21,264 nucleotides of DNA, taken from the IMG/VR virus record IMGVR_UViG_3300024346_000611, positions 1 to 21,264 of that record; one strand, 5' to 3'. The position numbers and the translations under genes are program-made. The stretch's first letter is position 1; each line of letters begins with the position of its first letter. Positions 1-18,500 of this stretch are shown here, one piece after another. The DNA comes from a virus. The notes under the pieces were generated by a model. The model searched no databases. It had not been told where the DNA came from and saw only the letters and a program-made list of their open reading frames with translations.

Positions 1-1063
1 CAACATTTGAATCATAATATAATTTTTTAAAATTACTACCACCCTTGTCTAAAGCGTTAGAGGTAGAACCCATCATACACTTACCTATTATTGTACCACC
101 TAGTCTTAATGTTGTTTTTGTAACTCTCCAGTTATTGAGTATATTGTTTGGTTTCTCCCATTTACCTGATTCATCATGTACAAGGAGTTTAAGTTTTTCT
201 CCATCATAGGAGTTGTCGCCTGTGTTTTTCCAATCGATAGTGGTGTCGAGCCCTGTGATTTCTGCAATGGCTTCATTGGTTTCAAGTTTTCTTCTTGTAA
301 ATTTAGATGCGGGTACTCTGTACGCAAGTTCGGTTTTTGGCCTGTCCATACCGTCCTGGATTGGTTTGAAGAAGAAGGGATAGTTAACGGAAATTGGTAC
401 AACCTTATCTGTGAACATCTTTTTAGCATCGGGACCAGATTTGGACAATATGCCGAACCGTGAATCCGTAGATATTGTCGCAAGGTTGACCGACTCAGCT
501 GAGGACATAAATGAGAATCCGCTTCTACGGTTCTTAAGATAACACATTCCATAACACCTGTCATCTGCTTTGCAAGCTTCCCAGAATATGTAGAATAATC
601 TGTTTGACTCCCTAAAGTCTGGTTGCCCAACGTCAATTTTGCTCCACTGCAAGTACATATAGTGAGTACCAGTAATGTAAGTAGCCACGTCTTTATTATT
701 GAACCAAAAACCTTGTTCTCTTTTATTAAACTCATTATCGATGTAATCATACCATTTTTCTTTAAAATTAACAGAATACTCTTCCCAATCAAAAACAGAT
801 TTAATCTTTTTTAATTCTTTAGGATATTCAGTGTATTCCCATTTATTAGAAACAAACCCGTGAGGTTTTTCTGGTTTTTTAGGTAAAGCTATTTTTAAAT
901 TTTGTATTTCATATACTTCACCTACAGTTCCATCTTTACTTATTACAATTATATCATGCTCTTCATTGTATCCATACTTCCATTTATTGTACCTATTCAT
1001 TCTATTAAGAACTTTTGGTTTAATGTGGTTTTTTAATACTTTATATAAACTTTGAATATACAT
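1..1063 (-). CDS. terL: Large terminase subunit, N-terminal ATPase part (3' end outside window)
   Basis: Open from the ATG at 1063-1061 to the window edge without a stop (354 codons); the C-terminal nuclease domain would lie outside. It is the ATPase motor that packages DNA into the prohead. Visible motifs: a Walker A-like KNRRSGFS at residues 177-184, a hydrophobic strand ending in Asp297-Glu298 (LKLLVHDE, Walker B plus catalytic Glu), and a coupling-type GSTSN at 332-336. The stretch HYMYLQWSKIDVG (134-146) just before the ATPase core is typical, from memory, of terminases in marine phages. The start overlaps the stop of the upstream gene in a TAATG junction, which supports translational coupling with the probable small terminase. 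The longer open frames on both strands in the first 800 bases are shadows of this gene. By hand count, bases 181-660 are near 42% GC against about 26% in 721-1020, which is odd for one gene. Assignment is confident; exact family is not. Confidence 0.87.
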   Translation of the reverse strand, partial: MYIQSLYKVLKNHIKPKVLNRMNRYNKWKYGYNEEHDIIVISKDGTVGEVYEIQNLKIALPKKPEKPHGFVSNKWEYTEYPKELKKIKSVFDWEEYSVNFKEKWYDYIDNEFNKREQGFWFNNKDVATYITGTHYMYLQWSKIDVGQPDFRESNRLFYIFWEACKADDRCYGMCYLKNRRSGFSFMSSAESVNLATISTDSRFGILSKSGPDAKKMFTDKVVPISVNYPFFFKPIQDGMDRPKTELAYRVPASKFTRRKLETNEAIAEITGLDTTIDWKNTGDNSYDGEKLKLLVHDESGKWEKPNNILNNWRVTKTTLRLGGTIIGKCMMGSTSNALDKGGSNFKKLYYDSNV

Positions 1064-1338: not shown

Positions 1339-1888
1339 ATTTAATTACAATATCATTAGATTTCATACAATAAAGTCTTTGCCCTTCTATTAAAAACTCC
1401 CACTCACTATTTGGTGTGTAGCCAACAAGATCTCCAGATGTTATTTTTAGCGCATTTAAAGAGCTATTGTCGTATTTTAATACACCAACAAGGTCTTTTT
1501 CTTTTTTGTTGCTAAACTGATCGTTATTAACTATAGGCATAACAAAACATCTGTCACCGACAGGTTTCCATGTTGAGTTATTTTTATATAGATATATTTG
1601 ATCTAAAGCACAAAAATATAAATCTTCTTTAAAAAAAGATCTACTTTTTTTCTTAATACCTTTACTGTTATAAAAAGTTCTAAAAACATTTTGATGTATA
1701 ACAACGGTATCACCTTTTTTTATACCAATATCAAATGCTAAAGGGGTTTCTACAACAATAGCAAGTCTATTAACAAATTTCCAACCTTCTATCTTAGTAT
1801 TTAAATATAACTCTTTATCTTTTATGTTTATTTTATTGTTATACTTATCACCTAAAGGCTTAACTATAAAGTCATATATGCTTTTCAT
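1283..1888 (-). CDS. Tandem GroES-like (two cpn10-type repeats) protein
   Basis: 201 residues. I see two repeats of the co-chaperonin pattern. Repeat 1: KPLGDKY at 10-16, IKKGDTVVIHQN at 56-67, LYFCALDQIYLYK at 90-102. Repeat 2: KPVGDRCFVMPI at 108-119, ITSGDLVGYTPN at 149-160, LYCMKSNDIVIKYE at 172-185. In GroES the matching elements are the N-terminal KPLGDRVLVKP strand, the GDxVLF turn and the C-terminal YLILxExDILAV strand. A GroES-like mobile loop with GG(I/L)(V/L)L is not evident, so it may not cap a GroEL ring in the normal way. The fold could serve in assembly or as a structural domain. The start ATG overlaps the stop of the upstream gene, and its 3' end overlaps the next gene by 56 bases. 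Similar proteins have, from memory, been labelled GroES-like in marine phages; the double-domain reading is mine. Confidence 0.65.
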   Translation of the reverse strand: MKSIYDFIVKPLGDKYNNKINIKDKELYLNTKIEGWKFVNRLAIVVETPLAFDIGIKKGDTVVIHQNVFRTFYNSKGIKKKSRSFFKEDLYFCALDQIYLYKNNSTWKPVGDRCFVMPIVNNDQFSNKKEKDLVGVLKYDNSSLNALKITSGDLVGYTPNSEWEFLIEGQRLYCMKSNDIVIKYEYQGNEKEYNPSWARSG

Positions 1889-2115
1889 TAATACTGTAGA
1901 TCATACTCAACTGATATAGCCATGTTAGAATTAAACTTCTTCCATGGCAATACCTCGTCTTTTTTCTTTATGTGTATATTATAAGAATTATCTTGCTCTT
2001 CAAATATTATATGCGATATTTCATGCCCGCCATAAACTTGTTGACCAATAGAATAATGCATAGCTTCGTTTTTGTAATCAGAACCTATGCTTATTTTTCT
2101 TATATTATTTTTCAT
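1888..2115 (-). CDS. Small conserved hypothetical protein
   Basis: 75 residues with no signal peptide or membrane segment. It is probably mainly beta-strand, with alternating hydrophobic residues in the second half (HIIFEEQDNSYNIHIKKKDE). It starts within the upstream gene (11-base overlap), and its stop shares one base with the next start, so it is embedded in the block leading to the terminase. I do not recognise a function. A HEISH sequence at residues 31-35 formally matches HExxH but sits in a predicted strand with no plausible third ligand, so I do not treat it as a metallopeptidase. Confidence 0.7.
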   Translation of the reverse strand: MKNNIRKISIGSDYKNEAMHYSIGQQVYGGHEISHIIFEEQDNSYNIHIKKKDEVLPWKKFNSNMAISVEYDLQY

Positions 2116-2768: not shown

Positions 2769-3170
2769 TTAATCTTTTTTATTTGTTATTTTTTTTGCTT
2801 TTTCCCAAGTTCTACCAACAAAATAAGCACCGTAAACAGTGACTAATAATGTTTGAAATATTGGTATATATTCTTCTGCTATTTTAAACTCTCCTACATT
2901 ACCGTGAAAAAAAGCGCAAGCAGTAAATATAACAGTTAAATATATAAGCACTAAAGGTCTTATATTTTTTGATAATACACTGTCTGACTGCATGTCTGAC
3001 TCCCATCTTTTAGTAACTTGCTCTTGAGCTTTATTATCTGCTTCTTCTAATATTTTTTGTATTTCTTTTTTTATTAAAAGTTTTTCTTCTTTGGTAGTAG
3101 TTAGTTTATCAATAACCTCACCAACCTCTTTTATAACGCTACTACTTAACCATTCCCAAATTTTTTTCAT
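2769..3170 (-). CDS. Holin-like membrane protein (GTA-type 3TM holin family, putative)
   Basis: 133 residues. An amphipathic charged N-terminal half (residues 1-60) is followed by two clear membrane segments at about 70-90 (NIRPLVLIYLTVIFTACAFF) and 102-119. The motif RWESDMQSDSVLSKNIRP (55-72) before the first segment is the signature I associate with the family 'Holin of 3TMs, for gene-transfer release'. A holin would permeabilise the inner membrane at the end of infection. No endolysin is visible beside it, but the next gene upstream encodes a lipoprotein, and the three zinc-peptidase-like genes are close by. Spacing to the upstream stop is four bases and to the downstream start two bases. 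Membrane topology is clear; the lysis role follows from the family. Confidence 0.68.
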   Translation of the reverse strand: MKKIWEWLSSSVIKEVGEVIDKLTTTKEEKLLIKKEIQKILEEADNKAQEQVTKRWESDMQSDSVLSKNIRPLVLIYLTVIFTACAFFHGNVGEFKIAEEYIPIFQTLLVTVYGAYFVGRTWEKAKKITNKKD

Positions 3171-3174
3171 ATAA

Positions 3175-3555
3175 TTATTTTATTTTTTTATAATATATAA
3201 TTAAATTTGTAGTTCCTTTTATATCTGCTTTTATTGTATTTAAATCAATTAATGAATACTTTATATTAGAATCATAATTAGATTCTTTAATTTTAAAATT
3301 GGTATTAAAGCTACCGTTTTCAAAACTTAAAAAAGTTTCATATCTTTTTTGTTTTTTATTTAAATTTAAAGTACAACTTTTAAAAGGATAGTAGTAATAA
3401 TTATATACTTCCATTTCGTTTTCACTATTTTTTATATTCATTAAAAAATTAGTGTTATCACTTTTCCAATCACCATTGTATATCGAATAGTCAAAACTAT
3501 TAATATTAGAGCAAGATGTTATTAATGTTATTAATCCTAAAAATATTGATTTCAT
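3175..3555 (-). CDS. Small secreted lipoprotein
   Basis: 126 residues beginning with a short signal peptide and a lipobox: MKSIFLGLITLITSC, with Cys15 as the predicted lipidated residue. The mature part begins SNINSFDYSIYNGDWKSD and has many Tyr, Asn and alternating hydrophobics, suggesting a small beta-barrel of lipocalin-like type (weak inference). It lies immediately before the holin-like gene. Phage lipoproteins in such places include outer-membrane spanins and superinfection-exclusion proteins; the length is large for an o-spanin and no i-spanin partner is visible. The gene is more AT-rich than its neighbours (poly-A/T runs throughout), which could mean later acquisition from a host. It shows that the host has lipoprotein sorting and probably two membranes. 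Confidence 0.72.
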   Translation of the reverse strand: MKSIFLGLITLITSCSNINSFDYSIYNGDWKSDNTNFLMNIKNSENEMEVYNYYYYPFKSCTLNLNKKQKRYETFLSFENGSFNTNFKIKESNYDSNIKYSLIDLNTIKADIKGTTNLIIYYKKIK

Positions 3556-3605: not shown

Positions 3606-5060
3606 TTACGCGTTCATAGTAAATTTACCACCTTGACCAGGGCTAAAAAGACTGTTTATGTTTTTATCTTTCATAATACTAGATTTTGATTGATCTTTAG
3701 TGCTAGCTATTGTATTTAATGCTTTTATTATTTTTTCTTTACCATATTTTTTAATAAAATTTCTACCATCATTTCCTAGTGTTTTGATTCTTTCATTTAG
3801 CTTTTTTAAATCAAATTGTTCTCCTGGAAACATATCCATATCAACTCTTAATTCATGAAAATTAGGGTAAAGTTCAGCTGGATCATCGTGATAACCAGTG
3901 CCTTTAGCCATTTTACCATCGTTTAAAATATTATTTAAAGAACTAAACATTGCAAGTCCTATGTCAGGATGCGTTAACTCGTGTTGAACTGTTGATCCAG
4001 ATGGTCCAGAATGTTTTCCATAACTAAAAGTCCCTGGATTAACTATAGCTCCAATTGGTCTACCAGAAGGAGTAGCTCCTTCGCTAAGCACAGCTGCTTC
4101 TGTTTCTCCTTGACCTGAGGTAGTGCTTCCAGAACCTACGAGACCTAATATATCTGACATCCAACCCATTGGTTTTTGAAGGGCAGGCATTACCGGTAAT
4201 TTAGACATTTGGTTTATTGACGCATCTAAATCAGCCTGAGAATAAGTATAGCCCGGCGCGTTGACATTTGATGATTTATAAAAGTTTTCTAAATTACCAG
4301 ATGTTTTATAATTGCTTCCAGTAAACTGCGCTTGACCTTTAGTATCACTGTTTCCTAACATCCTTTCTTGAGTTATAGGATTTGTAAACCAATCTATTGC
4401 TTTTTTCTTGTTTTCTGTAATTGAGTCAAAAATACCTTGTGCATTATCTTTTCTACCTTTATAAGTATCATTATTTTTTATATAGTCAATCGCATAATCT
4501 GCTCTTTTTTTGCCGTATTTTTTTAATAATGTATTATAACTAAGATCAGTTCCAGGTGTTAACATATCTTGCGCTAATTCCATTCCTTCCTGTCTTGATC
4601 CCATGCCACCAAAACCTAAATATTCATTTGTTGAAACTTGTTTATATTTTGCCTCGTCAATGTTTTTATAATAAAGTTCTAGTTTTTGTTCTGGAGTCAT
4701 GTTACTAAAATCAACTGGTTCTGGTCTTGCATAAGTAGCGCCGTAATTATTACCTACTACTTGATGAACCGCTTCACCAGCTTGATTTTCTGGTGTAGTA
4801 TACCCTGGAGCCACACCTAATCCGCGTCTAAAGTAAGGGTTTGTTTCATTGTTTACAGTATTGTTTAAAATACTTAAAAGATTATTAGATGCTTCGTTTT
4901 TATTAAAAAAAATTGTGTCTTTAGCAGTTCCAAACTGGGGTGGTGTAACAGCAGTTGATTCAACAATAACCTTTTTTTTGTTTAATTTTTCAGGATCAAT
5001 GTGATGAAGTTTAATTGGTGAATTTGTATGTTTTTTAAAATAATTTTTCTTTAATGCCAT
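3606..5060 (-). CDS. Putative zinc metallopeptidase (HELTH), SPxK-tagged, paralogue 2
   Basis: 484 residues. N-terminus MALKKNYFKKHTNSPIKLHH carries the MALKKN(F/Y)FK start and SP(I/L)K motif shared with the next gene upstream. A long low-complexity or extended region rich in Gly, Asn and Ser follows. Near the C-terminus QHELTHPDIG has the HExxH zinc signature (His360, Glu361, His364), and HELRVDMDM follows at 402-410, with Glu403 as a candidate third ligand. The last part (KKYGKEKIIKALNTI, residues 438-452) matches the end of the neighbouring gene closely. The peptidase-like domain is therefore at roughly 340-455. HExxH plus a downstream Glu is the gluzincin pattern, but activity is inference. 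The substrate is unknown: prohead proteins, host cell wall peptides or host proteins after injection are all possible. It starts two bases after the upstream stop, and a 50-base AT-rich spacer follows it. Confidence 0.7.
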   Translation of the reverse strand: MALKKNYFKKHTNSPIKLHHIDPEKLNKKKVIVESTAVTPPQFGTAKDTIFFNKNEASNNLLSILNNTVNNETNPYFRRGLGVAPGYTTPENQAGEAVHQVVGNNYGATYARPEPVDFSNMTPEQKLELYYKNIDEAKYKQVSTNEYLGFGGMGSRQEGMELAQDMLTPGTDLSYNTLLKKYGKKRADYAIDYIKNNDTYKGRKDNAQGIFDSITENKKKAIDWFTNPITQERMLGNSDTKGQAQFTGSNYKTSGNLENFYKSSNVNAPGYTYSQADLDASINQMSKLPVMPALQKPMGWMSDILGLVGSGSTTSGQGETEAAVLSEGATPSGRPIGAIVNPGTFSYGKHSGPSGSTVQHELTHPDIGLAMFSSLNNILNDGKMAKGTGYHDDPAELYPNFHELRVDMDMFPGEQFDLKKLNERIKTLGNDGRNFIKKYGKEKIIKALNTIASTKDQSKSSIMKDKNINSLFSPGQGGKFTMNA

Positions 5061-5062
5061 AA

Positions 5063-6115
5063 TTACGCTAATCTTTCGTTATTGTTTTTTCCTTTTATAA
5101 AGTCAAATTTCATTTTACCATCAGACTTTGGAGCATCACCTATAGTGTTTAATGCTTTTATTACATCTTCTTTTTTATATGCTTTTAAAAATCTATCTTG
5201 TTTTAGTTTTGGATTTGCGTCTATTAGTTTTTGTAAAGATTCTTCTGTATATTCATTGCCAAATTTATGATTTATATTTGATCTAAGTTCATTAAATAAA
5301 CCATAACTTTCGTGATCGTTTTGCATGTATTTTTTTTCATCTGAAGACAACCAACCGTCTCCAAACGTATTAATTGACTCTTCTTCGGTTGTGCTTGGTT
5401 CATTTCCAATAACCCCTCTTAATGGTCGTCCTTGTATTAAATCAAATTTTGAAAAATGTCCTATTTCGTGATCGTGAAGACCGTCATTTTTAGAAAACTC
5501 ATTCATGTATTCGTCTGGTTGTACGGTATAACCTGGATAAGTCACAAGACCGGTACTAGGGTCTCGATCCATGTCTACTTTTGCATTCCACGATTGCCCC
5601 GTGTTTTCGCTTGCGGTCCTATATGGAACATTGCTTACATTTGATATCATTTCTTTTATTACCTTTATATCAACAGGATTACCTTCAGCATCAACGGCTG
5701 TTTTTTCAATAAATTCTGCAGTCCCAGGTGTATTATAGTATCGTTCAGACCAAGTGTTTTCTCTGCTTTCAGGATATTTTTCTTTATCAATTTGATGATT
5801 ATCAACTAGTTGTGTGTAGGTAAGACCTCCTCCATTTCTCCAATTTGATTCTGGATTCTGACCTAGCGTACCAAATGGTATACCTTGCTCTGTTAATGGT
5901 TTGCCTACGTGTTCATATAACCAATCTGGAGCTCCTTTAGCGTCTACATAACTAGGTTGGTAAATTTCTTTAGGTTTTTCGGGTTTTAAACCTGCTATTA
6001 AGTTGGCTCTAGAGGGAGTTGATGCTTGAGGATGAGGTTTACCTTCGTGCATTTTAAGTGGACTATGATTTACACCACCTTGTAGTCCTTTAAAAAAATT
6101 CTTTTTTAATGCCAT
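5063..6115 (-). CDS. Putative zinc metallopeptidase (HEIGH), SPxK-tagged, paralogue 1
   Basis: 350 residues. N-terminus MALKKNFFKGLQGG followed by HSPLKMHEGK is the same tag as in the next gene downstream. The zinc signature HDHEIGHFSKF has His216, Glu217 and His220. FNELRSNINHKFG follows at 275-287, with Glu276 as the likely third ligand, sixty residues after the motif. The C-terminus (LKAYKKEDVIKALNTIGDA, residues 310-328) aligns with the end of the downstream paralogue. Between the tag and the motif, residues 50-200 are Pro/Gly/Asn-rich and contain many short polar segments; I do not recognise a second domain. It starts two bases after the stop of the HEMVH gene, so the three putative peptidases are one translational unit. 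No signal peptide is present, so export would have to be through the virion or after lysis. Confidence 0.7.
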   Translation of the reverse strand: MALKKNFFKGLQGGVNHSPLKMHEGKPHPQASTPSRANLIAGLKPEKPKEIYQPSYVDAKGAPDWLYEHVGKPLTEQGIPFGTLGQNPESNWRNGGGLTYTQLVDNHQIDKEKYPESRENTWSERYYNTPGTAEFIEKTAVDAEGNPVDIKVIKEMISNVSNVPYRTASENTGQSWNAKVDMDRDPSTGLVTYPGYTVQPDEYMNEFSKNDGLHDHEIGHFSKFDLIQGRPLRGVIGNEPSTTEEESINTFGDGWLSSDEKKYMQNDHESYGLFNELRSNINHKFGNEYTEESLQKLIDANPKLKQDRFLKAYKKEDVIKALNTIGDAPKSDGKMKFDFIKGKNNNERLA

Positions 6116-6117
6116 AT

Positions 6118-6585
6118 CTATGCGTTTTTAGCTTCGTTATAGGCTTCTTTTTCCCAAGGTAAATTCTTAGCGCCTTCATTCATGTCATCTCTTGAAAACT
6201 TTTTTCCTTCCCAATAAACGTTATCTTCATCGTAGCTTAACCTACCGTCTTTTATCTGTTTAACGTGTACCATCTCGTGGTCCACAACTTCTTGTTGTTG
6301 TTTTGGATCTTTAATGTCTTTATTTACAAGTATACTACCGTTATTAGTAGCCATACCTAATGTGCCTTCATCCATATCAACATGTAATATAGGTGTATTG
6401 CCTGATTCTTCATTATATGGAGATCCTTTCATCTTAAAACCCATTTTTAATGGAGATGTTCTTTTTTCCTTAGCAGCCTTAAAAGCAGCGTCATTACCGG
6501 TTCCAGAACCACTTCTACCACGCATTTTGCCCCATTCAGGGTTGTGCATCATAGAGCTCCAACAGTGTTTTATAGGTGAACTCAT
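6118..6585 (-). CDS. Putative small zinc metallopeptidase (HEMVH), SPxK-tagged
   Basis: 155 residues and the first gene after the hairpin terminator. It starts MSSPIKHCWSSMMHNPEWGK and carries a second copy of the tag, TSPLKMGFKMKGSPY, at 43-57, so the protein has two SP(I/L)K motifs. The zinc signature is VVDHEMVHVKQIKDG (His103, Glu104, His107). A later LPWEKEAYNEA (142-152) supplies Glu145 or Glu147 as a third ligand; HExxHxxQ followed by LPWExEAY is a pattern I have seen in compact zincin-like proteins. A short beta-hairpin region (GMATNNGSILVNKDI) precedes it, as in the minimal zincin fold. It is not an obvious copy of the two larger neighbours, so the three may share function more than recent origin. 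The final gene structure (155 residues) suggests a complete minimal domain. Confidence 0.68.
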   Translation of the reverse strand: MSSPIKHCWSSMMHNPEWGKMRGRSGSGTGNDAAFKAAKEKRTSPLKMGFKMKGSPYNEESGNTPILHVDMDEGTLGMATNNGSILVNKDIKDPKQQQEVVDHEMVHVKQIKDGRLSYDEDNVYWEGKKFSRDDMNEGAKNLPWEKEAYNEAKNA

Positions 6586-6606
6586 ATATTGATTTTTTTA
6601 AAATAA

Positions 6607-6632
6607 ACCCCGCAACTATTTAGTCACGGGGT
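6607..6632 (-). terminator. Rho-independent terminator after the 97-residue virion protein gene
   Basis: On the minus strand ACCCCGTGAC, loop TAAATA, GTTGCGGGGT: a ten-base-pair stem with two wobble pairs and six G/C pairs, about 15 bases after the stop at 6648. It is followed by TTTATTTTA in the minus direction. The other strand has an even better T-run, so it could work both ways. It is the only clear hairpin terminator in the window and splits the minus-strand genes into two blocks. Confidence 0.78.
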
Positions 6633-6647
6633 ATTTGTTTTTTTAAA

Positions 6648-6941
6648 TTATACTATAACTACTCCACTGACAACTATTGTTCCTAGTTGTACTTTAGATT
6701 TTATACCCCCTGGATTAGCAGTTAGTGCGCTTTGAATAACTTTAGCCAAAGCAGTTCCAGTTCCTGTTGAACAAGTAAATACAATGTGACTTGTTAGTCC
6801 GTTTTGAAAAATAGTAGCTTTTGTAGCTTTGCCACCTCCTACACCTCCGCCGTCTCCAGCTTGTACGTTTAAGATTTGATCCGCATTAACAAGTAAAGTT
6901 CCTGCGTCGCCAGTTGTTGAAATTTCGATAAATTTTGCCAT
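6648..6941 (-). CDS. Small virion structural protein (putative)
   Basis: 97 residues, beginning MAKFIEISTTGDAGTLLVNA. It is predicted all-beta with a Gly-rich loop (GDGGGVGGGKA, 29-39) and strands rich in Val, Ile and Thr; there is no membrane segment or signal peptide. This size and composition fit small virion proteins of marine phages, which I recall as starting MAKFI and carrying a LLVNAD-like strand. It has its own hexanucleotide-repeat leader upstream and a strong terminator directly after it, the arrangement expected of a gene expressed at high level. The exact role (decoration, tail tube or other) cannot be fixed from sequence alone. Confidence 0.62.
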   Translation of the reverse strand: MAKFIEISTTGDAGTLLVNADQILNVQAGDGGGVGGGKATKATIFQNGLTSHIVFTCSTGTGTALAKVIQSALTANPGGIKSKVQLGTIVVSGVVIV

Positions 6942-6944
6942 TTT

Positions 6945-6980
6945 GTTTGTGTTTGTGTTTGTGTTTGTGTTTATGTTTGA
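6945..6980 (-). repeat. Hexanucleotide tandem repeat in a leader (ACAAAC)
   Basis: On the plus strand GTTTGT occurs four times exactly (6945-6968), followed by two imperfect units (GTTTAT, GTTTGA). On the minus strand this reads (ACAAAC)n immediately upstream of the ATG at 6941, so it is the 5' leader of the virion-protein gene. It would give an unstructured A/C-rich leader without a Shine-Dalgarno sequence. The unit number may vary by slippage. Confidence 0.9.
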
Positions 6981-7006
6981 CTTGGGTTTTACAGTTCCCT
7001 ACTGTT

Positions 7007-7465
7007 TTATTTTTTCATACCGCACATTGATGCGATACCTTTTTTCATTAATATAGCTGGTTTAGCTAAAGCTTTCATCATAGCCGCGGGTGCTCCGTCT
7101 CCTGCATATCCCATGTCACCACCAACTATTGATTGTGAATCAGGTGTCATATCTTCAGTTAAAACGTTATGACCCATGTCACCAGACATTTTAATAGGCA
7201 TTGTTTCGTCACCAACCTGCATTGTAGTAGCTGAAGGATCTTTTTTTAAAGTTTCTGCTTTAATAAAACCTAAGTTTTTTGTTGCTGGTTCTCCATACAT
7301 TTTAGGTGCGTGGTCACTACCACACATCTTAGGAGCATGCTTATCGTGCTCACTGTTCTCTAGATAATGTAATCTAGCTTTGTCTGTTAAGTCTTTATTA
7401 TAAGCCTCTTTAGCATCGTATTTTTGTCCCGAGTATCTCGGGTGATTTCCTGAGTATTGTCCCAT
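7007..7465 (-). CDS. Hypothetical protein with HAPKM repeats
   Basis: 152 residues, no recognised domain. The N-terminus MGQYSGNHPRYSGQKYDAKE is polar. It contains two tandem copies of HAPKM(C/Y)G (43-49 and 52-58) and later a related MPIKMSGDMG, echoing the SPxK-type short motifs in nearby genes. The C-terminal 40 residues are Ala/Met/Lys-rich (AMMKALAKPAILMKKGIASM) and likely form an amphipathic helix. It is probably disordered overall. It is part of a run of small genes between the winged-helix gene and the virion-protein gene. A structural or internal virion protein is possible, but no function can be assigned. Confidence 0.65.
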   Translation of the reverse strand: MGQYSGNHPRYSGQKYDAKEAYNKDLTDKARLHYLENSEHDKHAPKMCGSDHAPKMYGEPATKNLGFIKAETLKKDPSATTMQVGDETMPIKMSGDMGHNVLTEDMTPDSQSIVGGDMGYAGDGAPAAMMKALAKPAILMKKGIASMCGMKK

Positions 7466-7473
7466 TTTTTTAT

Positions 7474-7770
7474 TTATTTAAATTTATCTAATATATTTGT
7501 TGCTTTTTTACCAATCATGTGTTTAGCTGTTTTTGCAAAAAGACTTACTTTTTCACTAAACGTCTTTGGCACAGTATTATCATGCTTCCAGTCTAACTTA
7601 TCATAAACATCCCTTCTTCCTTTACTACCAGGAGGATTATCTTTTAGCATTTGACTTTTAATTGCGTCTACTCCTTTGCTTTTAAGATCAGAGCTAGACA
7701 CTTGTATTGAAGAACCGTCGTCTTGCAATACATTTTTTTTATCGTGATGATTTTTAATTGGTGATGGCAT
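7474..7770 (-). CDS. Small SPxK-motif protein
   Basis: 98 residues starting MPSPIKNHHDKKN, that is, with the SP(I/L)K motif directly at the N-terminus as in the HEMVH protein. The rest is charged and mostly helical (KVSLFAKTAKHMIGKKATNI near the end), with a Ser-rich middle. No enzyme motif is present. It begins 13 bases after the upstream stop and ends nine bases before the next start. Its likely relevance is as another member of the motif-sharing set; function unknown. Confidence 0.65.
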   Translation of the reverse strand: MPSPIKNHHDKKNVLQDDGSSIQVSSSDLKSKGVDAIKSQMLKDNPPGSKGRRDVYDKLDWKHDNTVPKTFSEKVSLFAKTAKHMIGKKATNILDKFK

Positions 7771-7782
7771 TGTTATATTTTT

Positions 7783-8214
7783 TTAGCATTTCCAACGCTT
7801 ACGCGCTGCTTTACCTCTTTCGCCAGTCCAACCTTTGGACCTAGCACAAAATGATTTTCTTCTTTTAGCAGCTTTACTACCTGGTTTTACGTCACCTGTA
7901 ACTGCTGTCTTTAATTTACTACCCGGGTTTTTTCTTCTATACTCTTTAACGCCTTTACTAGTCATACCAGCGCCTTCTTCTTTTGTTCTAAAGTTTCTTC
8001 CTTTGCCCTTAGTAGTTTTTCTTATTTCCTTTTTTGCACGTTTTTTTTTTAATGGACCGTCTAAAACGTCACCTTCCATTTTTACAGGAACACAATTAGG
8101 AACTTTTCTACCTCCTTTTGTTTTCATACCTACCATTTCGTAGTTTTTCCAACAAGGGCCTTTTTTTTGCAAAGGACTTGTTTTAGCTGAGTGCTGAATT
8201 TTACCTATAAACAT
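7783..8214 (-). CDS. Basic phage protein with VPNCVP and KRRKSFCAR motifs
   Basis: 143 residues and strongly basic. The N-terminal part has AKTSPLQKKGPCWKNYEMVG and KVPNCVPVK (38-46), a Cys/Trp pattern I know from small phage proteins of marine cyanophages and pelagiphages. The C-terminal half, from about residue 80, has GAGMTSKGVKEYRRKNPGSK and SKAAKRRKSFCARSKGW, the signature of another widespread marine-phage family of unknown function. This gene therefore joins two motifs I know from separate proteins. The many Lys/Arg residues and the final RKRWKC suggest nucleic-acid contact, for example a DNA-associated internal head protein. The start at 8214 overlaps no stop and lies one base after the preceding stop. 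Function unproven. Confidence 0.7.
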   Translation of the reverse strand: MFIGKIQHSAKTSPLQKKGPCWKNYEMVGMKTKGGRKVPNCVPVKMEGDVLDGPLKKKRAKKEIRKTTKGKGRNFRTKEEGAGMTSKGVKEYRRKNPGSKLKTAVTGDVKPGSKAAKRRKSFCARSKGWTGERGKAARKRWKC

Positions 8215-9460: not shown

Positions 9461-9907
9461 TTATCTATTTTTATCTTTATTAACATTATAAATAGCCTTT
9501 GTAAGTACCTTATCAGTATAACTTTTGCATTTTATAATATTGTTTCTTCTAATACTAGTAGGTATATCTTCTTCACCTAACATTATTTTGTATATTTTAT
9601 TAATAAGTTGCTTAAATTTAAAAGATACTTTATATATATTATATTTTTGAGTTGTTCTATTTCTATTTCTCCAAACAACAATCCAATCTTTATTTTTAAG
9701 CTTATTCCATCTTCTGTTATTCCAGCTGTACGAATAAGTACCTTTTATAAAATCTTTTTTAGTAAAGTAATCTATAGAATCTAAGTATATCAATAACTCA
9801 AGCTCAGCATCTGTTAAGTCGTTGTTTTTACAAGCCCATTTGCGTATTATACGGTAATGTTTTAGTAGGTTTAATTCTTTTAAATCACCTGCATCTAGCT
9901 TTCTCAT
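9461..9907 (-). CDS. Winged-helix (MarR-like) DNA-binding protein, putative
   Basis: 148 residues. The segment LLKHYRIIRKWACKNND, a helical stretch (LTDAELELLIYLDSIDYFTK), then DFIKGTYSYSWNNRRWNKLK and the wing-like IVVWRNRNRTTQKYNIYKVS together fit a MarR-type winged-helix. I recall close relatives in marine phages labelled as MarR-type regulators. It may regulate phage or host transcription. Its ATG overlaps the stop of groES in an ATGA junction, so it is coupled to the chaperonin genes. No ligand-binding pocket can be assessed from sequence. Confidence 0.65.
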   Translation of the reverse strand: MRKLDAGDLKELNLLKHYRIIRKWACKNNDLTDAELELLIYLDSIDYFTKKDFIKGTYSYSWNNRRWNKLKNKDWIVVWRNRNRTTQKYNIYKVSFKFKQLINKIYKIMLGEEDIPTSIRRNNIIKCKSYTDKVLTKAIYNVNKDKNR

Positions 9908-10164
9908 TTAACAACGACCACATCTTGTGATTTTATTATGTGGTATATTTTTTTATTAAATTCTATTTTATGACCAGCGTGCCTATCAAAAAATATTTCA
10001 TCTTTTTCTTTAACTCCCTCTACATCCAAGCCTACACTAATTACTTTAGCTTCTCTGTATCTTAAATCTTCTTTTTGATTTTCTGAAAGAAGTAAACCAC
10101 CTTTTGTGGTTGTTGTACCTTCTTTTTTTATATCTATAATTAAATTTCTACCTATTGCTTTCAT
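9904..10164 (-). CDS. groES: Co-chaperonin GroES
   Basis: 86 residues, the usual size for phage cpn10. MKAIGRNLIIDIKKEG matches the N-terminal strand, TTTTKGGLLLSENQKEDLRYR the mobile loop that contacts GroEL (GGLLL in place of GGIVL), and DEIFFDRHAGHKIEFNKKIY with IKSQDVVVVK the later barrel strands and C-terminus. The protein caps the GroEL ring to fold substrate proteins. Its start overlaps the end of groEL by 17 bases, and its stop overlaps the next start. The (R)YRxAKVIS-type segment is the variant I associate with phage GroES proteins rather than with host copies. Confidence 0.92.
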   Translation of the reverse strand: MKAIGRNLIIDIKKEGTTTTKGGLLLSENQKEDLRYREAKVISVGLDVEGVKEKDEIFFDRHAGHKIEFNKKIYHIIKSQDVVVVK

Positions 10165-11701
10165 CTATTCTTAAATTATTGATTACACAATTTGTAGATA
10201 AAATAGTTGTTGCCACAGAAGCCGCATTTTTTAAAGCGCTTTTAGTAACTAATAAGGGATCAATTATTCCTTGATTAGTCATATTTACCATATTTCCTGT
10301 AACCACATCTAAACCAAAACAATCATTTTTTGGATAATTTATTTTTAGTCCAGCGTTTGTTAGTATTGTTTCGTAAGGAGCTTTAATAGCTTTAGCTAAA
10401 ACCTTACCTGCAATAGTTTCTGCATTTATATGGTTAGAAGCATTTAACAAAGCTATACCACCTCCAGGAACAATACCTTCTTTAACAGCGGCTTTTGTAG
10501 CACAAATAGCATCTTCAACCCTATCCATCTTCTCTTTAAGTTCTATTTCAGAATTAGCACCTACTTTTACTACAGCTATCTTTGAAGATAACATTGCTAA
10601 TCTTTTTTCTAAACTTATTATTTGATCAGGTATCTTACATGTTAAAAGCTTTTTCTTTATGTCTTTAATTATTTCAAAGCACTCGTTGTTCTGAGATTCA
10701 AACTGAAGTATAGTATCTTGATCGCTAGTTATTGATTTAAAACATGCTCCTAAGTGTTCTATTTCAATTAAATCCATATCGTCACCTAAATCCTCGTTTA
10801 TTAAAGTAGCGCCAGTTAGAAGCGCTAGATCATCAAACATTTGTTTTCTGTTTACACCTAAAACTGGTGCTGATATAACGTTTACTTTTATGTTACCTTT
10901 AGTTTTATTCATTGCTAAAGCAGATAAAACCTCGGGGCTTAAGTCAGCTATAATTAATAATGGTTTATTATTTTTTATAACATATTCTAAGACACTTTGT
11001 ATTTGTCTTATGTTTTCAACGTTATTTTCTATCAACAAAACTAAAGGGTTGTTTAGTTCTGCTGTTTTTTTAATTTTATTAGTAACAAAGTGAGGGCTTA
11101 ATAATCCTTTAAAATACTGAGAGCCTTCTATTGTTTCTAACTCTGTTTTATCAGAGTCTGACTGCTCCATCATTACTACACCTGTATTATTTACAGATTT
11201 AAAAGCTTCACCTATTAAGTTACCTAGTTTTTTATCATTATTAGTAGATATAGTAGCTATTTGATTAACCATGTTATTCTTTATGGGTTTTGATATTTTA
11301 CATAAATACTCTATAACCTCATCAACAGCTTTGTTTATACCTTCTTTTAACTCTCTATTGTTTGTTTTTTCTTGTACTTTATAAGCCTCTTGCAGTATTG
11401 CGTAGGCTAAAACAGTGGCTGTGGTAGTGCCGTCTCCCGCTTCTTTTACAGTTTTTTTTGCAGCTTGCTTTAATAAGTTGCAACCTAAGTTTTCTACTGG
11501 GTTTCTTAACACTACGCTTTCAGCGACTGTAACTCCATCTTTTGTTATCATTGGGTTTCCAAACTGGTCTTCTAATAAAACGCAACTACCACCAGCTCCT
11601 AAAGTTGAGCGAACAGCGTTTGCTAGTTTTTCTATACCAATAAAAACCTCTTCCTTAGCTTGTTTTCCAAAACTAAGGTTTTTTACTATTTTGTCTGACA
11701 T
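10148..11701 (-). CDS. groEL: Chaperonin GroEL (cpn60)
   Basis: 517 residues, about 30 shorter than bacterial GroEL. The ATP site is intact: TKDGVTVA (53-60, with Asp55) and GDGTTTATVLA (89-99). RVEDAICATKAAVKEG carries the Asp equivalent to catalytic Asp398, and PGGGIALL at 412-419 is the nucleotide-contacting glycine segment. The TLGPxGRN segment is changed to TLGAGGSC (33-40). The C-terminus ends IDESNR without the Gly-Gly-Met tail, which accounts for much of the shorter length. The hydrophobic apical substrate-binding region is kept (LLSPHFVTNKIKKTAELNNP). It folds proteins in the cytoplasm with GroES, likely capsid or fibre proteins of this phage. It lies directly upstream of groES with a 17-base overlap. 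Leader has a repeated CAATTTAATT and no Shine-Dalgarno sequence. Confidence 0.96.
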   Translation of the reverse strand: MSDKIVKNLSFGKQAKEEVFIGIEKLANAVRSTLGAGGSCVLLEDQFGNPMITKDGVTVAESVVLRNPVENLGCNLLKQAAKKTVKEAGDGTTTATVLAYAILQEAYKVQEKTNNRELKEGINKAVDEVIEYLCKISKPIKNNMVNQIATISTNNDKKLGNLIGEAFKSVNNTGVVMMEQSDSDKTELETIEGSQYFKGLLSPHFVTNKIKKTAELNNPLVLLIENNVENIRQIQSVLEYVIKNNKPLLIIADLSPEVLSALAMNKTKGNIKVNVISAPVLGVNRKQMFDDLALLTGATLINEDLGDDMDLIEIEHLGACFKSITSDQDTILQFESQNNECFEIIKDIKKKLLTCKIPDQIISLEKRLAMLSSKIAVVKVGANSEIELKEKMDRVEDAICATKAAVKEGIVPGGGIALLNASNHINAETIAGKVLAKAIKAPYETILTNAGLKINYPKNDCFGLDVVTGNMVNMTNQGIIDPLLVTKSALKNAASVATTILSTNCVINNLRIDESNR

Positions 11702-12530: not shown

Positions 12531-15500
12531 TTATTTTTCTAATTGTTGCACTCTTGCCTTTAAATCTTCTATTATTTCTTGTTGCTCTTTTATTGCGTTT
12601 ATTAGCACAGCTGTTAATTCTGCATAAGCCACAGATTTAAGTCCTGTGTCAGAAGCTTCTAATATAAGCTCTGGTAAGACAGCTTCAACCTCTTGCGCTA
12701 TAACACCTACTTTTGTAACCTCTGTGTTAAAATCAGTTCTGTTATAGTAAACACCTCGCATTGCTTGTACCTTACTAATACAATTATCTATTTCAACTAC
12801 ATTTTCTTTAACTCTACTATCGGAGTTTTGAGTTAATGTACCATTGATGGTCATGTTAGCAGTTGAAGGATAAAAATAATACCTAGTTGAGGATCCTTCT
12901 CGCCAGTTAATTTGGCCGCAGTTCATGTCAAAATAAGTCTGATTATTATTAGTATGAAACCTAAAATACTTATTTGTTGCGTTATTACCTAAATACATAT
13001 CGCCAACTCCACCGCTACCTAAAACAAAGGTGCCGCCGTGCGCTGTTAAATTTCCACATGCAAATCTCTCATATGCATTTCCTGGGTTGTTTCTAACTGC
13101 TATTGTACCATTGTTTTCAATTGTCATGCTAGAAGCAACAACTCCACCCCAATGCCAGCTTATAAATGGGGGAGTTCCAGAAGAACCTGATAAATTAGAT
13201 TCTCTTAATTCTACGCCTGCATTGGTGTAGCTAGTACTAGTACTTGTAGCCGCAAATGTATTATTACCTTGACGTGTTTGACCACCTGTAGTTCTTATAA
13301 CTGTACTGTCATTTGACGACACAAATGGCAAGTTACTAAAAGTTGTTTCGAATACATTACCATTAGAAGCAGCCATTAGTAAAAAATCAGATGAAGCAAC
13401 AGCGGCACTTAATGTTGGCGCTGCTTTTATAATACTATCACTACCTAAATAATCAACATTTAAAGTTACACCTCCTGATGTACCACCGCCAGTTAATCCT
13501 GTGCCAGCGGTAACACCTGTTATGTCACCTGAATTATTAGTAAAAGGCAAATCGCCAACAGTAACATAACCAATTCTTCTATTAGTACTTGTTGAACCAG
13601 GGTTTGATATCATTATATAATCTCCTGATACTACAGTATCCCCAGTAAAATCAAAACCTGATTGTATTATGTTAGTAGGAACACCGTCGTATTCTACTTC
13701 TATTGTTCCGGTAGTTGTTATAGTTCCACCATCTAAGCCTCCACCAGTCGCAACAGATGTTACTGTACCTGTGTTACTTGTATGAGTATTCCATTGAGTT
13801 GAATTTCCTCCAGCAGCATATATGTTTCCTATGGTCTTAAAATTACCAGACGAGCTTGATAACTCAGCAACGACTGACTGACCTGTGGTTGCACCACTTG
13901 CTAATTCTTCCCATGTCCATCCATACCCTGAGACTGGTTCTACAACAGATCGAATTGCCCATGACGTAACATATGTTCCCGCAGGAGCAGTTAGGTTTCC
14001 ATTATACCCTACACTTGTTGCTCCAGCTGGCGACATATACGTTTGCCAACCATTAATTGTTTCATTATAATAATTATAACCACTTGCAGCATTACTGACT
14101 CTGTTTAAAGATGTTCTTGGAGATAATAGTTTACCTGTCATAGTCCCACCAGCAAGTGGTAAAAATGTGCCTGAGCCTGCGCCTGCCACAGCAGTATCTA
14201 CATAAGCTTTATTAGCTGCATCTGTTGAATCTGATACCGTATCAATCCCCTCTATACGGCCTGTACCATTTAGTTGTATGCCTCCGCCTCCTACAATTAT
14301 ACTACCACCTGTTGTTAATACGTTATATGTAGTTACTCCTCCAAAAGCGTCAATTTCTAAGCCACTAATTCCGGAAGCGGCAACTATAAAATTAATTCCA
14401 AGGCTAGATGTTATGTTAGCATCATTAGTACCTGTGTTACTAAAAATTAAATCTCTACCGCCAATTGTTACATCACCTGCAAAAGTTGAGTTGTTATTGC
14501 TGTCTAACGTTAAAACCACTGATGTTGCTGTATAAAATACCATAGAATCAGAACTATGAGTATAAATAATACGCCCAGAGTAATCTACATTAGGTTCCGC
14601 AAAATCAATATAACCACCAGCGGAACCGCTAAATTGAGCGTGGGCATAGTTTGACATTTGACCTAATCCAACTCCTGTTTCAGCGATTCCAGAACCTGTA
14701 GCTAAAGCGCCTAAAGCTTTGAAAGGTGCGTTACTTACATTAACAGTTGAAGCAGTTATTTCAAATCTTGCTGTACCGCCAGTAGCAACTCTAAAAATGT
14801 CATTACTTGGAAAACCAAAATAAGTATTACCATCCCCGGTGTGATAAATATATTCTGGTATAAAAATACCTCCAGTACCTCCAATAGTTAAGTCTCCACC
14901 AGTTGTTATAGTACCTGCGAAAGTTGCGTTTTGTGATTTGTCTAAAGTTAGAGCTTTAGTGTTTGTTCCAGAGGAATTATCAGTCCAAAACTCAATTTGG
15001 CCACCATGTAATGTATTGTCAGCTACAACAAATCTAATAGCTGATCCAAAACTAGAATCAACATTAGAATATTGAAAATCTATAGCTTTATAATTACCAG
15101 TACCCATACCACTAGCATTTCCTAATCCAGTTAAGAAAATACCATCACCATTAGTTCCAGACGCTATTGTTAATTTACTAGCAGCGTTACCGTTACTAGT
15201 TGCACCTAATATAACGCTTTCTGCAAAAGTTGCATCGCCAGTTGATGAGATAGTAAGTCTTTTAATAGGATTTCCTGATGCTCCAGTATAAAATTCCATA
15301 TCATCACCATCCCATCCATCAAAATAAATACCACTACTTGGTAATGCAGAATTATTATAAACAACATTACCAGAATTATTAAGTTTTGAATTTGCTCCTA
15401 TATATAAACCTGCTCCATTTTGATCTACTGTCGATAAACCTGAAGTTGCAGATGCTCCAGTGAAACCTATTTTAAAAGTATTATTTTCTTCTCCAGGTAA

Positions 15501-18500
15501 AGTAATATTCCCAGTCATTGTTCCACCAGCTAGTGGTAAGAAAACTCCAGCGCCTGGAGTAAGTGCGTCTACGTAGTTTTTTGTTGTAAGAGTTGTACCA
15601 CTATCAGTTGATACCGTAGAAGATGATGTAGCTTTTAAAGCTAATGACAAACCACCTGACATAGAAACGTTATTATTAGTTCTACTTAACGTGATTACAG
15701 GTGCTCCACTTTGACTATTATTATGTCTTTTTATTAATAATTCATTTGTACCGTTTCCTGTTTGTTCAAAAGAAAACCCATACGTCATGTTTCCACTAAC
15801 TAAAGTTTCAGCAAGCTCTAAAGCAGAACCTGAGTTACCAAAACCGCCACTTCTAATTATAGGCACATCTGTAGCTGAGCTTCCTTGTACGTGTAAATTC
15901 GCTGTAGGCGAAGTTACCCCAATTCCGACGTAGCCATTAGCTCTAACATTAAGTATATCGTCATTGGAATAAAAACCTAAGCCCATATAGTTATTTGTAG
16001 ATCCAGCGCCGTTGTACTTGAATCTAATTACGCCGCAGTTGTTTTGACTGTTGGCTGACCCTATAGTAAACGCATTAAAATTACTACTATCTACACCCAT
16101 CACAGATAAACCTATAGCTGAGTTAGCGTCTAAATCCATATTTATAGTTTGGGTTGCGCCTACTACGGTCATCTTACCTTGAGGGGCTAATATACCTACA
16201 CCAACATCTCCATATCTATCAATAGTAAATCTATTCGTCCAAGTACCAACATCTCCAATTTGTATATTAAAGAAATTATTACCATTCCCTTGATAATACA
16301 ATCTTGCTCCATAACCTTGATTACCTGATTCCTCACTTAATATTAAAGAGGCTTCATCTGCGTCATCACACGAAACATTAATTGTAGGATTTACACCTTG
16401 TACGGTACTAACTATATTTAAAAAAGATGTAAGATCAGATGCTGGTCCCGCTGAACCAATATTCATGTTGCCAGTGTTAATAGCTATTCCTGGGTTTGAA
16501 TTGTCAAATAGCGCAAAATTATTTCCTGCAGGGTATCTTACGCTGTAAGAGTCTCCACCGCCTAAATAAAGTTCGTCTCCTGAAGCAGCAAAAACCGCTG
16601 ACGCATTTGTACCCACACTTTTTATAACTACGGTATCGTCAGCATCCATATTAACGGTAAGAGGCCCTGTTATTGTTGTTGGGTTACCTATTGTTACCAC
16701 AGAACCTGTATCTGTAATAGAACTATCAGTTAAAGTTTCTGAATCTGCATTTGATGCTCCTGACCATTTGGCTAACTTTTGTCCTGTACCTGCGCCTGAT
16801 ATTACAGATGAGTTATCTATTCTTTGCCATAAATCTGTTCCTGCGCCCGGTGTTACATCTGAAAATATACACCAATCACCTACAGCCCAAGAATCTGGTT
16901 CTGTAGTTCCTCCATTCGGAGATGAGGTACCCGGAGTGTCAACTATATAATAATTACCTAAAATTTTGTTAGCCGGTAATGTTAAATCAGGCGAGTTTGT
17001 AGATGCATTCCATGTTCCTTTATATACTGGAACACCTGTTACAAGACCATCAACATAACTTTTGGTTGCAAGCGTGGTACCGCCGTCTGATGCAACTGTT
17101 GCTACAGAAGTTCCTTTGCCTGCTAAAGTTACGTTACCTGATCCATCAAAAGATTGTTTTACAACATTACCGTGTTTAAACTCTATAAAATCAGGAGTTG
17201 ATTCTCTATAAAATATACCATAAGTTGGGGCGTTAGCTAGTACAATCATCGGCACTGTTTGACCACCAAGATAATTAACTCCAAACCCACCTGCACTTGA
17301 AGTTACAGTACCTGCAAAAGTTGCAGCAGTAGAAGTAACAGATAAAGCAGCTGCGCCACCGGCTGGTTGCACTTGAAAAGTATTGCTAGAAGCAGAAAGC
17401 TCTACGTTACCCCCTGAATCTTGTAATTTTATTCCCGCTATGCCATCTGTACTTATAAAACTTGCTACAACATTACCTGTTCCTGAGTTAAAAGAAGCTG
17501 TTGTTCCAGTTAGCGCACCCGCAAAAGTTGCTGTTGTTGATGATAGTGAAAATTGGGCACCACTGACGTTACCAGCTGGATACATATTTATAACTGTACT
17601 GTTACCTGCTATAACAGGTTTGCCGCTACTGTAACCACCAGCCCACGCTACGTCACCACCATCTGGTAAAAATAATTGACCGCCGTTAACAGTTACATCA
17701 CCTGCAAAAGTTGCGTTACCGTTGTTATTTGCAATTTCTAGAGCACGACTGCTTGTGCCGCCGTATGTTATATAAAGATTATTACCATCATTGTCTATTC
17801 TATTAACAGCGCTTGTGCCAGAAGATGTTACGTAAAAATTCTGAGCATAAATATCATGACCAGAAACATATCCGGTGAAAATTCCATTAGTTGCCGATAT
17901 TGCCGCAAAAGTTGAACTACTTGCAACACTAAATGTTCCGCCTACTTTTGTATTACCATTAGTTGTGTTGTGCTCAAATTTTATATATGCAGTTCTTGCA
18001 TTACCAGAATTGTTATAAAAAGTTTTACTACCCATTCCACCAGCAGTTGAACCGCCTGTAAAATGTATTAAATTAGCACCGTTTTCAGTACTTATACCCC
18101 ATTCTACATGAGGTTCATAATCAGCAAATATGATAGTATCACCCTCTGAAGTTTTTTGTTGTATTGCAATGGACGCTTGGGTGTTTGCTGTTCCTGAGGC
18201 TACAACTTCTAAAGCAGGTGGATTAGCAGAAGAATTTCCTGCAGTTGGCCCAACTATTTTTCCGGTCATTGTTCCACCGGCAAGCGGTAAGTAGTTACCT
18301 ATAGGCACCGCTGCAACTGCGGCTGTAACAAAAGCAGTTGATGCAGCTCTTGTGGTATTATCACCAGCTGATCTTGTGCCTACATCTGGCGTTGAAGAAA
18401 ATGTAGCAAGACCTCCAGAGTTAATTGTTAATCTAGTTGTACTATTAGTTCTTAATGTTAATGAAGAATTACCTGTAGGACCAATAACCATTCCTCCAGT

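Follow-up and report, generated by a model that had tools for sequence, protein, structure and literature searches.

The three adjacent minus-strand genes for proteins of 155, 350 and 484 residues in a 21,264-base IMG/VR viral fragment (the window, that is, the whole stretch of DNA analysed here) represent two zincin-like families rather than three equal ones. A conserved small zincin gene is followed by a slot in which a constant leader is joined to swapped bodies. From sequence comparison we favour, with moderate confidence, the reading that these genes form a virion-cargo metallopeptidase module, in which the leader-tagged, swappable protein would act as an effector or ejection protein. According to this reading, the 155-aa protein would be a minimal zincin that the phages of this group conserve, and the gene or genes behind it would be an exchange slot, in which a swappable body follows a constant leader some 25 residues long. 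The body usually carries a predicted zinc-peptidase site, made up of HExxH or HExxxH and a Glu further downstream. The assembly machinery of the phage itself may recognise the leader and so bring the slot protein into the particle. Once delivered at infection, the slot protein might cleave host proteins that serve the envelope, regulation or defence or, alternatively, trim other ejected proteins. The features of the window are listed in Table 1.

Table 1. Features of the window bearing on the zincin genes, their neighbours and the phage group
Feature	Position	Strand	Remark
155-aa protein, conserved small zincin gene	6118..6585	-	core residues ~46-152
HEMVH of the 155-aa protein, residues 103-107	6265..6279	-	in predicted helix 94-113
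LPWEKEAY of the 155-aa protein, residues 142-149	6139..6162	-	predicted third-ligand helix
350-aa slot protein, type A	5063..6115	-	leader, variable linker and putative zincin domain
Leader of the 350-aa protein, MALKKNFFKGLQGGVNHSPLKMHEGKPH	6032..6115	-	common to unrelated bodies; pattern confined to slot
Putative zincin domain of the 350-aa protein	5138..5482	-	HEIGH 216-220, E269, R278, LNTI
484-aa slot protein, type A	3606..5060	-	second tandem copy
Leader of the 484-aa protein, MALKKNYFKKHTNSPIKLHHI	4998..5060	-	diverged form
Putative zincin domain of the 484-aa protein	3702..4013	-	HELTH 360-364, E396, R405, LNTIA
126-aa small secreted/lipoprotein-like gene	3175..3555	-	signal peptide with LITSC, by eye
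133-aa 3-TM holin-like protein	2769..3170	-	boundary of exchange region
75-aa gene with a fourth HExxH	1888-2115	-	YGGHEISHI
Large terminase	2-1063		
GroEL and GroES pair	9904-11701	-	
2354-aa tail-fibre-like protein	12531-19595	-	C-terminus S74-type intramolecular chaperone-like, by eye

Our analysis confirms the coordinates of the three genes, their HEMVH, HEIGH and HELTH motifs and the two-base gaps between neighbours, all of which had been described in a first-pass annotation of this DNA. Sequence shuffling gives a chance of an HExxH motif of P = 0.011 for the 155-aa, 0.022 for the 350-aa and 0.008 for the 484-aa protein, and a joint probability of about 2e-6 for all three. The motif is conserved in relatives, being invariant in 30 of 30 aligned relatives of the 155-aa protein and in 11 of 11 domains of the type (type A) to which the two larger proteins belong. 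Nevertheless, HExxH alone is insufficient as proof, because the 75-aa gene of the window carries a further HExxH that is conserved in the relatives compared, and its product, which shows no evident third ligand, is probably not a zincin. The 155-aa protein and the type-A proteins show no detectable homology beyond the motif (hhalign probability 1.2). The tandem set of three that had appeared unusual is thus better described as a conserved small zincin plus a slot that is usually filled once, although a tandem type-A pair is indeed present in the window, in its twin contig (L001/L010) and in L041.

Relatives of the 155-aa protein are encoded in 293 stretches of viral_contigs, within this and related phage groups. 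The family core reads MAFKMKG..NTPI..VDM..LG.A..NG.I..N, followed by HExxH and then LPWExEAY, which is likewise invariant in the 30 aligned relatives, and a 45-aa N-terminal extension with SPIK and SPLK motifs is found only in some of them. The AF2 model of this protein, with a pLDDT of 71-85 over most of residues 63-150, predicts three strands (66-69, 77-79 and 85-88), the HExxH helix (94-113), a hairpin and a C-terminal helix (143-154) that starts from LPWE. In a fold search with this model, zincin-type metallopeptidases made up the majority among the PDB matches listed, with IrrE (Z 6.6) at their head, ahead of SprT-like (5.3), CapP (4.7) and ArdC (4.7) structures. These Z scores are moderate, and we therefore place weight on the consistency of the family and on the position of the motif within a helix. 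The similarity is one of fold only, since the Pfam ImmA/IrrE (M78) model was unmatched by the 155-aa protein even at E up to 10. With HExxH, a downstream Glu and a zincin-like predicted fold all found together, the modelled assignment of this protein as a zincin is well supported. LPWEKEAY also stands as the proposed source of its third ligand, E145 and E147 being invariant in 30 of 30 relatives. A divergent small zincin (HEDHH, LPWEKEAY) with a long C-terminal extension is encoded in a Flavobacteriaceae metagenome bin (L159:1321-3336).

For the 350- and 484-aa proteins the evidence is of a different kind. Their domains were aligned with other type-A domains as segments; default alignment of the full-length slot proteins misplaced the motifs. 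The H, E and H of the motif and a downstream Glu (E269 in the 350-aa and E396 in the 484-aa protein) are invariant in the 11 aligned domains, and this Glu lies nine residues ahead of an Arg (R278 and R405) that is likewise conserved. A Glu is placed equally in related zincin units of the phages phi14:2 and phi17:2 and of Dulem virus 41. The Glu of NELRSN and HELRVD, which had been proposed as the third ligand, is probably not that ligand, because Gln occupies its position in L029, L034 and L143. Neither does the motif IKALNTI form a shared C-terminal tail as had been assumed; it is placed inside the zincin domain, at about residues 319-325 of 350 and 445-451 of 484. The two proteins are still to be regarded as paralogues, since both match the same zincin unit of a crassvirus-type cargo protein, as described below. 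Searches of Pfam, PHROGs, NCBIfam and PADLOC assigned neither protein to a family, and profile-based PDB sequence searches returned nothing relevant. The structure model of the 484-aa domain is poor (pLDDT 56), and a fold search with it gave helical-bundle noise only. The zincin nature claimed for all three proteins is therefore supported along two lines, by fold search for the 155-aa protein and by strict motif conservation together with domain homology for the 350/484 pair, for which such sequence evidence makes the assignment well supported.

In loci that carry a slot gene, this gene starts 2 nt behind the small zincin gene, and its product begins with a leader common to all, M[AG][LF]KK[NG][FY]F.., mostly continued by K.LQ.GVN.SP[LI][KR], over about 25 residues. 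Four types of body follow this leader. Type A (350, 484, 348, 527, 504, 508, 539, 556, 505, 475 and 499 aa) shows HExxH, ELY.NF.EfR and LNT[IV]A; type B (692, 678, 648 and 653 aa) shows HExxH in the form HE.QHG, with EP.AF.GELRQ; type C (680, 632, 642 and 641 aa) carries HEL[LV]GHGG, that is HExxxH; and type D (604 and 540 aa) is without HExxH. When type A is compared with types B and C, HE/H and E..E.R fall in register, but at an hhalign probability of only 5. In the closest pairs of different class, the small zincins are 94-99% and the leaders 79-92% identical, and the bodies only 13-22%. The lineage of the phages is tracked by leader distance (Mantel r 0.32, p 0.001) but not by body distance (Mantel r 0.08, p 0.15), and the pN/pS of the leader is 0.36 against saturated bodies. 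A scan of viral_contigs with a degenerate leader pattern found 26 stretches, every one in loci that belong to this group of phages. The idea of the leader as a genome-wide tag was rejected in that form, the pattern being confined to the slot. A shorter motif, SP[LIV]K or in wider form SP[LIVFM][KRQ], lies near the N-termini of several small neighbours as well as in the slot leader (window 5063-8214, minus strand, and the matching block of G001-G003); in three contigs the wider form occurs in 11 genes against 0.9 expected, all between groES and terminase.

The gene behind the slot changes with the body type, being a small secreted protein after types A and D and a GldL-like protein (the G001/L012 copy matches PF22827 at 9.5e-24) after types B and C, with no exceptions among the loci compared, and for this reason we conclude that body and next gene are exchanged together. 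The holin-like gene beyond the partner gene (PHROG 3427 holin, 3e-28; PF11351, 3.7e-5, just below the cut-off) is common to both exchange forms. The linkage of body and partner may be functional or may merely reflect recombination endpoints. The gene for the GldL N-terminal domain (L012:8628-9053, also in L018, L020, L031-L033, L037, L039 and L040) always comes immediately after a slot gene of type B or C. GldL is a component of the gliding/T9SS motor, and the phage protein could interfere with the motor of the host.

The link to virion cargo comes from homologues of the type-A domain. In BLASTP the 484-aa protein matches a zincin unit within an 863-aa protein of a 96.9-kb contig (L143) at 3e-16, with 38% identity over 114 aa, and the 350-aa protein matches the same unit at 7e-10; this 863-aa protein carries one such unit together with the crassvirus cargo-1 domain (PF25725, 9.6e-16). 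Searches of cultured phages by tblastn with the 350- and 484-aa proteins gave weak matches that converge on one Cellulophaga locus. On inspection, phi14:2 gp081, annotated as a virion protein by MS/MS, combines PF25725 (2.8e-10) with two zincin units bearing the same invariant residues, and phi17:2 gp042 combines a Phage_lysozyme2 domain (9e-32) with two units; phi4:1 gp041, of equal length and syntenic with phi17:2 gp042, is also MS/MS-annotated. A structural protein of Dulem virus 41 has one N-terminal unit. On these alignments, the zincin units of crassvirus cargo protein 1 and of MS/MS-detected virion proteins of Cellulophaga phages are homologues of the type-A domain. Cargo protein 1 of crAss001 has been reported from the capsid as well as the tail, and its ejection is expected (PMC10172136); peptidase, protease or zinc is not mentioned in the crassvirus literature consulted (PMC10172136, PMC10136315). 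Members of the type-A domain family also form part of the cargo proteins in virions of crAss-like phages, which makes it probable that the type-A slot proteins are packaged into the virion and transferred to the host. The virion evidence comes from relatives only, in which the zincins are fused to other cargo domains; the window proteins are stand-alone. Among the roles offered by the first-pass annotation, virion delivery fits best. Several observations stand against the cargo-module reading: the window proteins have no PF25725 cargo-1 domain at E up to 10, the leader is absent from other genes, the slot adjoins a holin-like gene, type D bodies have no HExxH, and the 484-aa domain is poorly modelled. 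A giant internal-protein-like gene (G001:C1:45576-52934, with relatives in G002, G003, G006 and G007; 2452-3215 aa) carries an HEFLH at about residue 900 that is conserved in 5 of 5 contigs compared, which makes its product a further candidate virion zincin.

A broader proposal, which we advance tentatively, is that marine phages of Flavobacteria-type hosts possess a delivery slot in which one leader loads exchangeable metallopeptidase effectors, and in which body and matching downstream gene are co-exchanged as an arms-race cassette. This cassette would be the functional counterpart of the targeting sequences and internal proteins of T4, though independent of them. Phage proteases delivered with the genome are widely predicted and seldom assigned. 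With alleles swapped at one slot between near-identical phages, a leader that stays constant and a defined partner gene, the module offers a ready comparative system, in which the leader could be used for a delivery-tag test and host-specific targets could be sought by comparing the bodies. The connection with cargo protein 1 of crassviruses would also place a peptidase domain inside some of these cargo proteins.

A different reading would make the zincins accessories of a lysis module, which act late at the envelope with their holin-like and secreted neighbours and break host envelope proteins. The block does end at the holin-like gene and a small secreted protein, and in slot-less relatives the small zincin is often directly followed by a secreted or holin-like gene. 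A lysis-related role keeps some probability because of this neighbour and because the elemo phage and MW202828 carry a D-Ala-D-Ala carboxypeptidase/M15-type gene in the corresponding interval, which also counts against the cargo module. We nevertheless consider it unlikely: the slot proteins have no signal peptide by eye, domains homologous to theirs occur in virion proteins (in two cases joined to cargo protein 1 and in one to a tail lysozyme), and the relative G001 has a separate endolysin. The role of an endolysin, or cell-wall attack as the first-pass annotation had it, fits poorly and was rejected as the main role of the slot proteins, because in the 59.5-kb relative G001 an Amidase_2 endolysin is encoded some 30 kb away from the slot, just ahead of a short TM protein; nor was any peptidoglycan-hydrolase domain found in the 350- and 484-aa proteins in searches that included Pfam and PHROGs. 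Slightly less likely still is a virion maturation or cargo-processing protease that cuts phage proteins, such as the giant internal protein, while particles are assembled or their contents ejected. In polyvalent proteins, zincins have been proposed to act in autoprocessing (Iyer et al., PMC5512222), and the giant protein of the relatives has a conserved HEFLH of its own. Such a protease would be expected to be conserved, yet the bodies swap between near-identical phages and those of type D have no motif, so that the conserved 155-aa zincin could be a candidate for this role and the slot proteins less so. That the proteins are non-catalytic variable virion decorations, keeping HExxH for metal-supported folding, seems very improbable, for although their activity is predicted only and type D bodies fill the same slot without the motif, its general-base Glu, needless for mere folding, is invariant in all aligned type-A domains, in types B and C and in the 155-aa family.

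The virion-cargo module that we favour resembles several known systems and differs from each. Its type-A domain is homologous to the embedded zincin units of some cargo proteins 1 of Crassvirales (PF25725 crAss_CARG1; phi14:2 gp081; crAss001 gp45). The window proteins, in contrast, are without the cargo-1 domain; they stand alone behind a short leader, in a group of phages outside the crass lineage. Zincin-like MPTase domains with HExxH or HExxxH plus Glu are also known, in diverse clades and including HEXXXH variants, from polyvalent proteins of phages, which are thought to be injected (Iyer et al. 2017, PMC5512222). In contrast to these large multi-domain proteins, defined by at least two effector domains, no second known domain was found in the 350- and 484-aa proteins, in which the putative zincin is the sole recognisable enzymatic domain, combined with a constant leader in a swappable slot. 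The slot shares with the internal proteins of T4, which bear a capsid targeting sequence (CTS) (PMC9026906), a short constant N-terminal leader and bodies diverged beyond recognition. However, its bodies are predicted peptidases and those of T4 small basic proteins, the parts are unrelated, and head targeting and leader cleavage by the prohead protease are features of T4. The 155-aa protein resembles IrrE/PprI, SprT, CapP and ArdC-type zincins in predicted fold and differs from them in being minimal, with a phage-specific LPWExEAY. An HExxH-bearing domain is also present in the virion RNA polymerase of N4, an ejected protein (PMC12633501). The module is best filed as a variant of phage-delivered metallopeptidases that appears new.

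The host of the window phage is inferred to belong to the Flavobacteriia, because the 87 phage records matched by its large terminase come nearly all from phages of Flavobacterium (68), Cellulophaga (15), Tenacibaculum (2) and Maribacter (1), with one unclassified member of the Caudoviricetes. A near-identical module in a Flavobacteriaceae metagenome bin (L152) lends weak support to this host. The nearest cultured relatives by TerL are Cellulophaga Pachyviridae and the Flavobacterium elemo phages. The window phage also encodes its own GroEL and GroES pair and a very long tail-fibre-like protein (Table 1).
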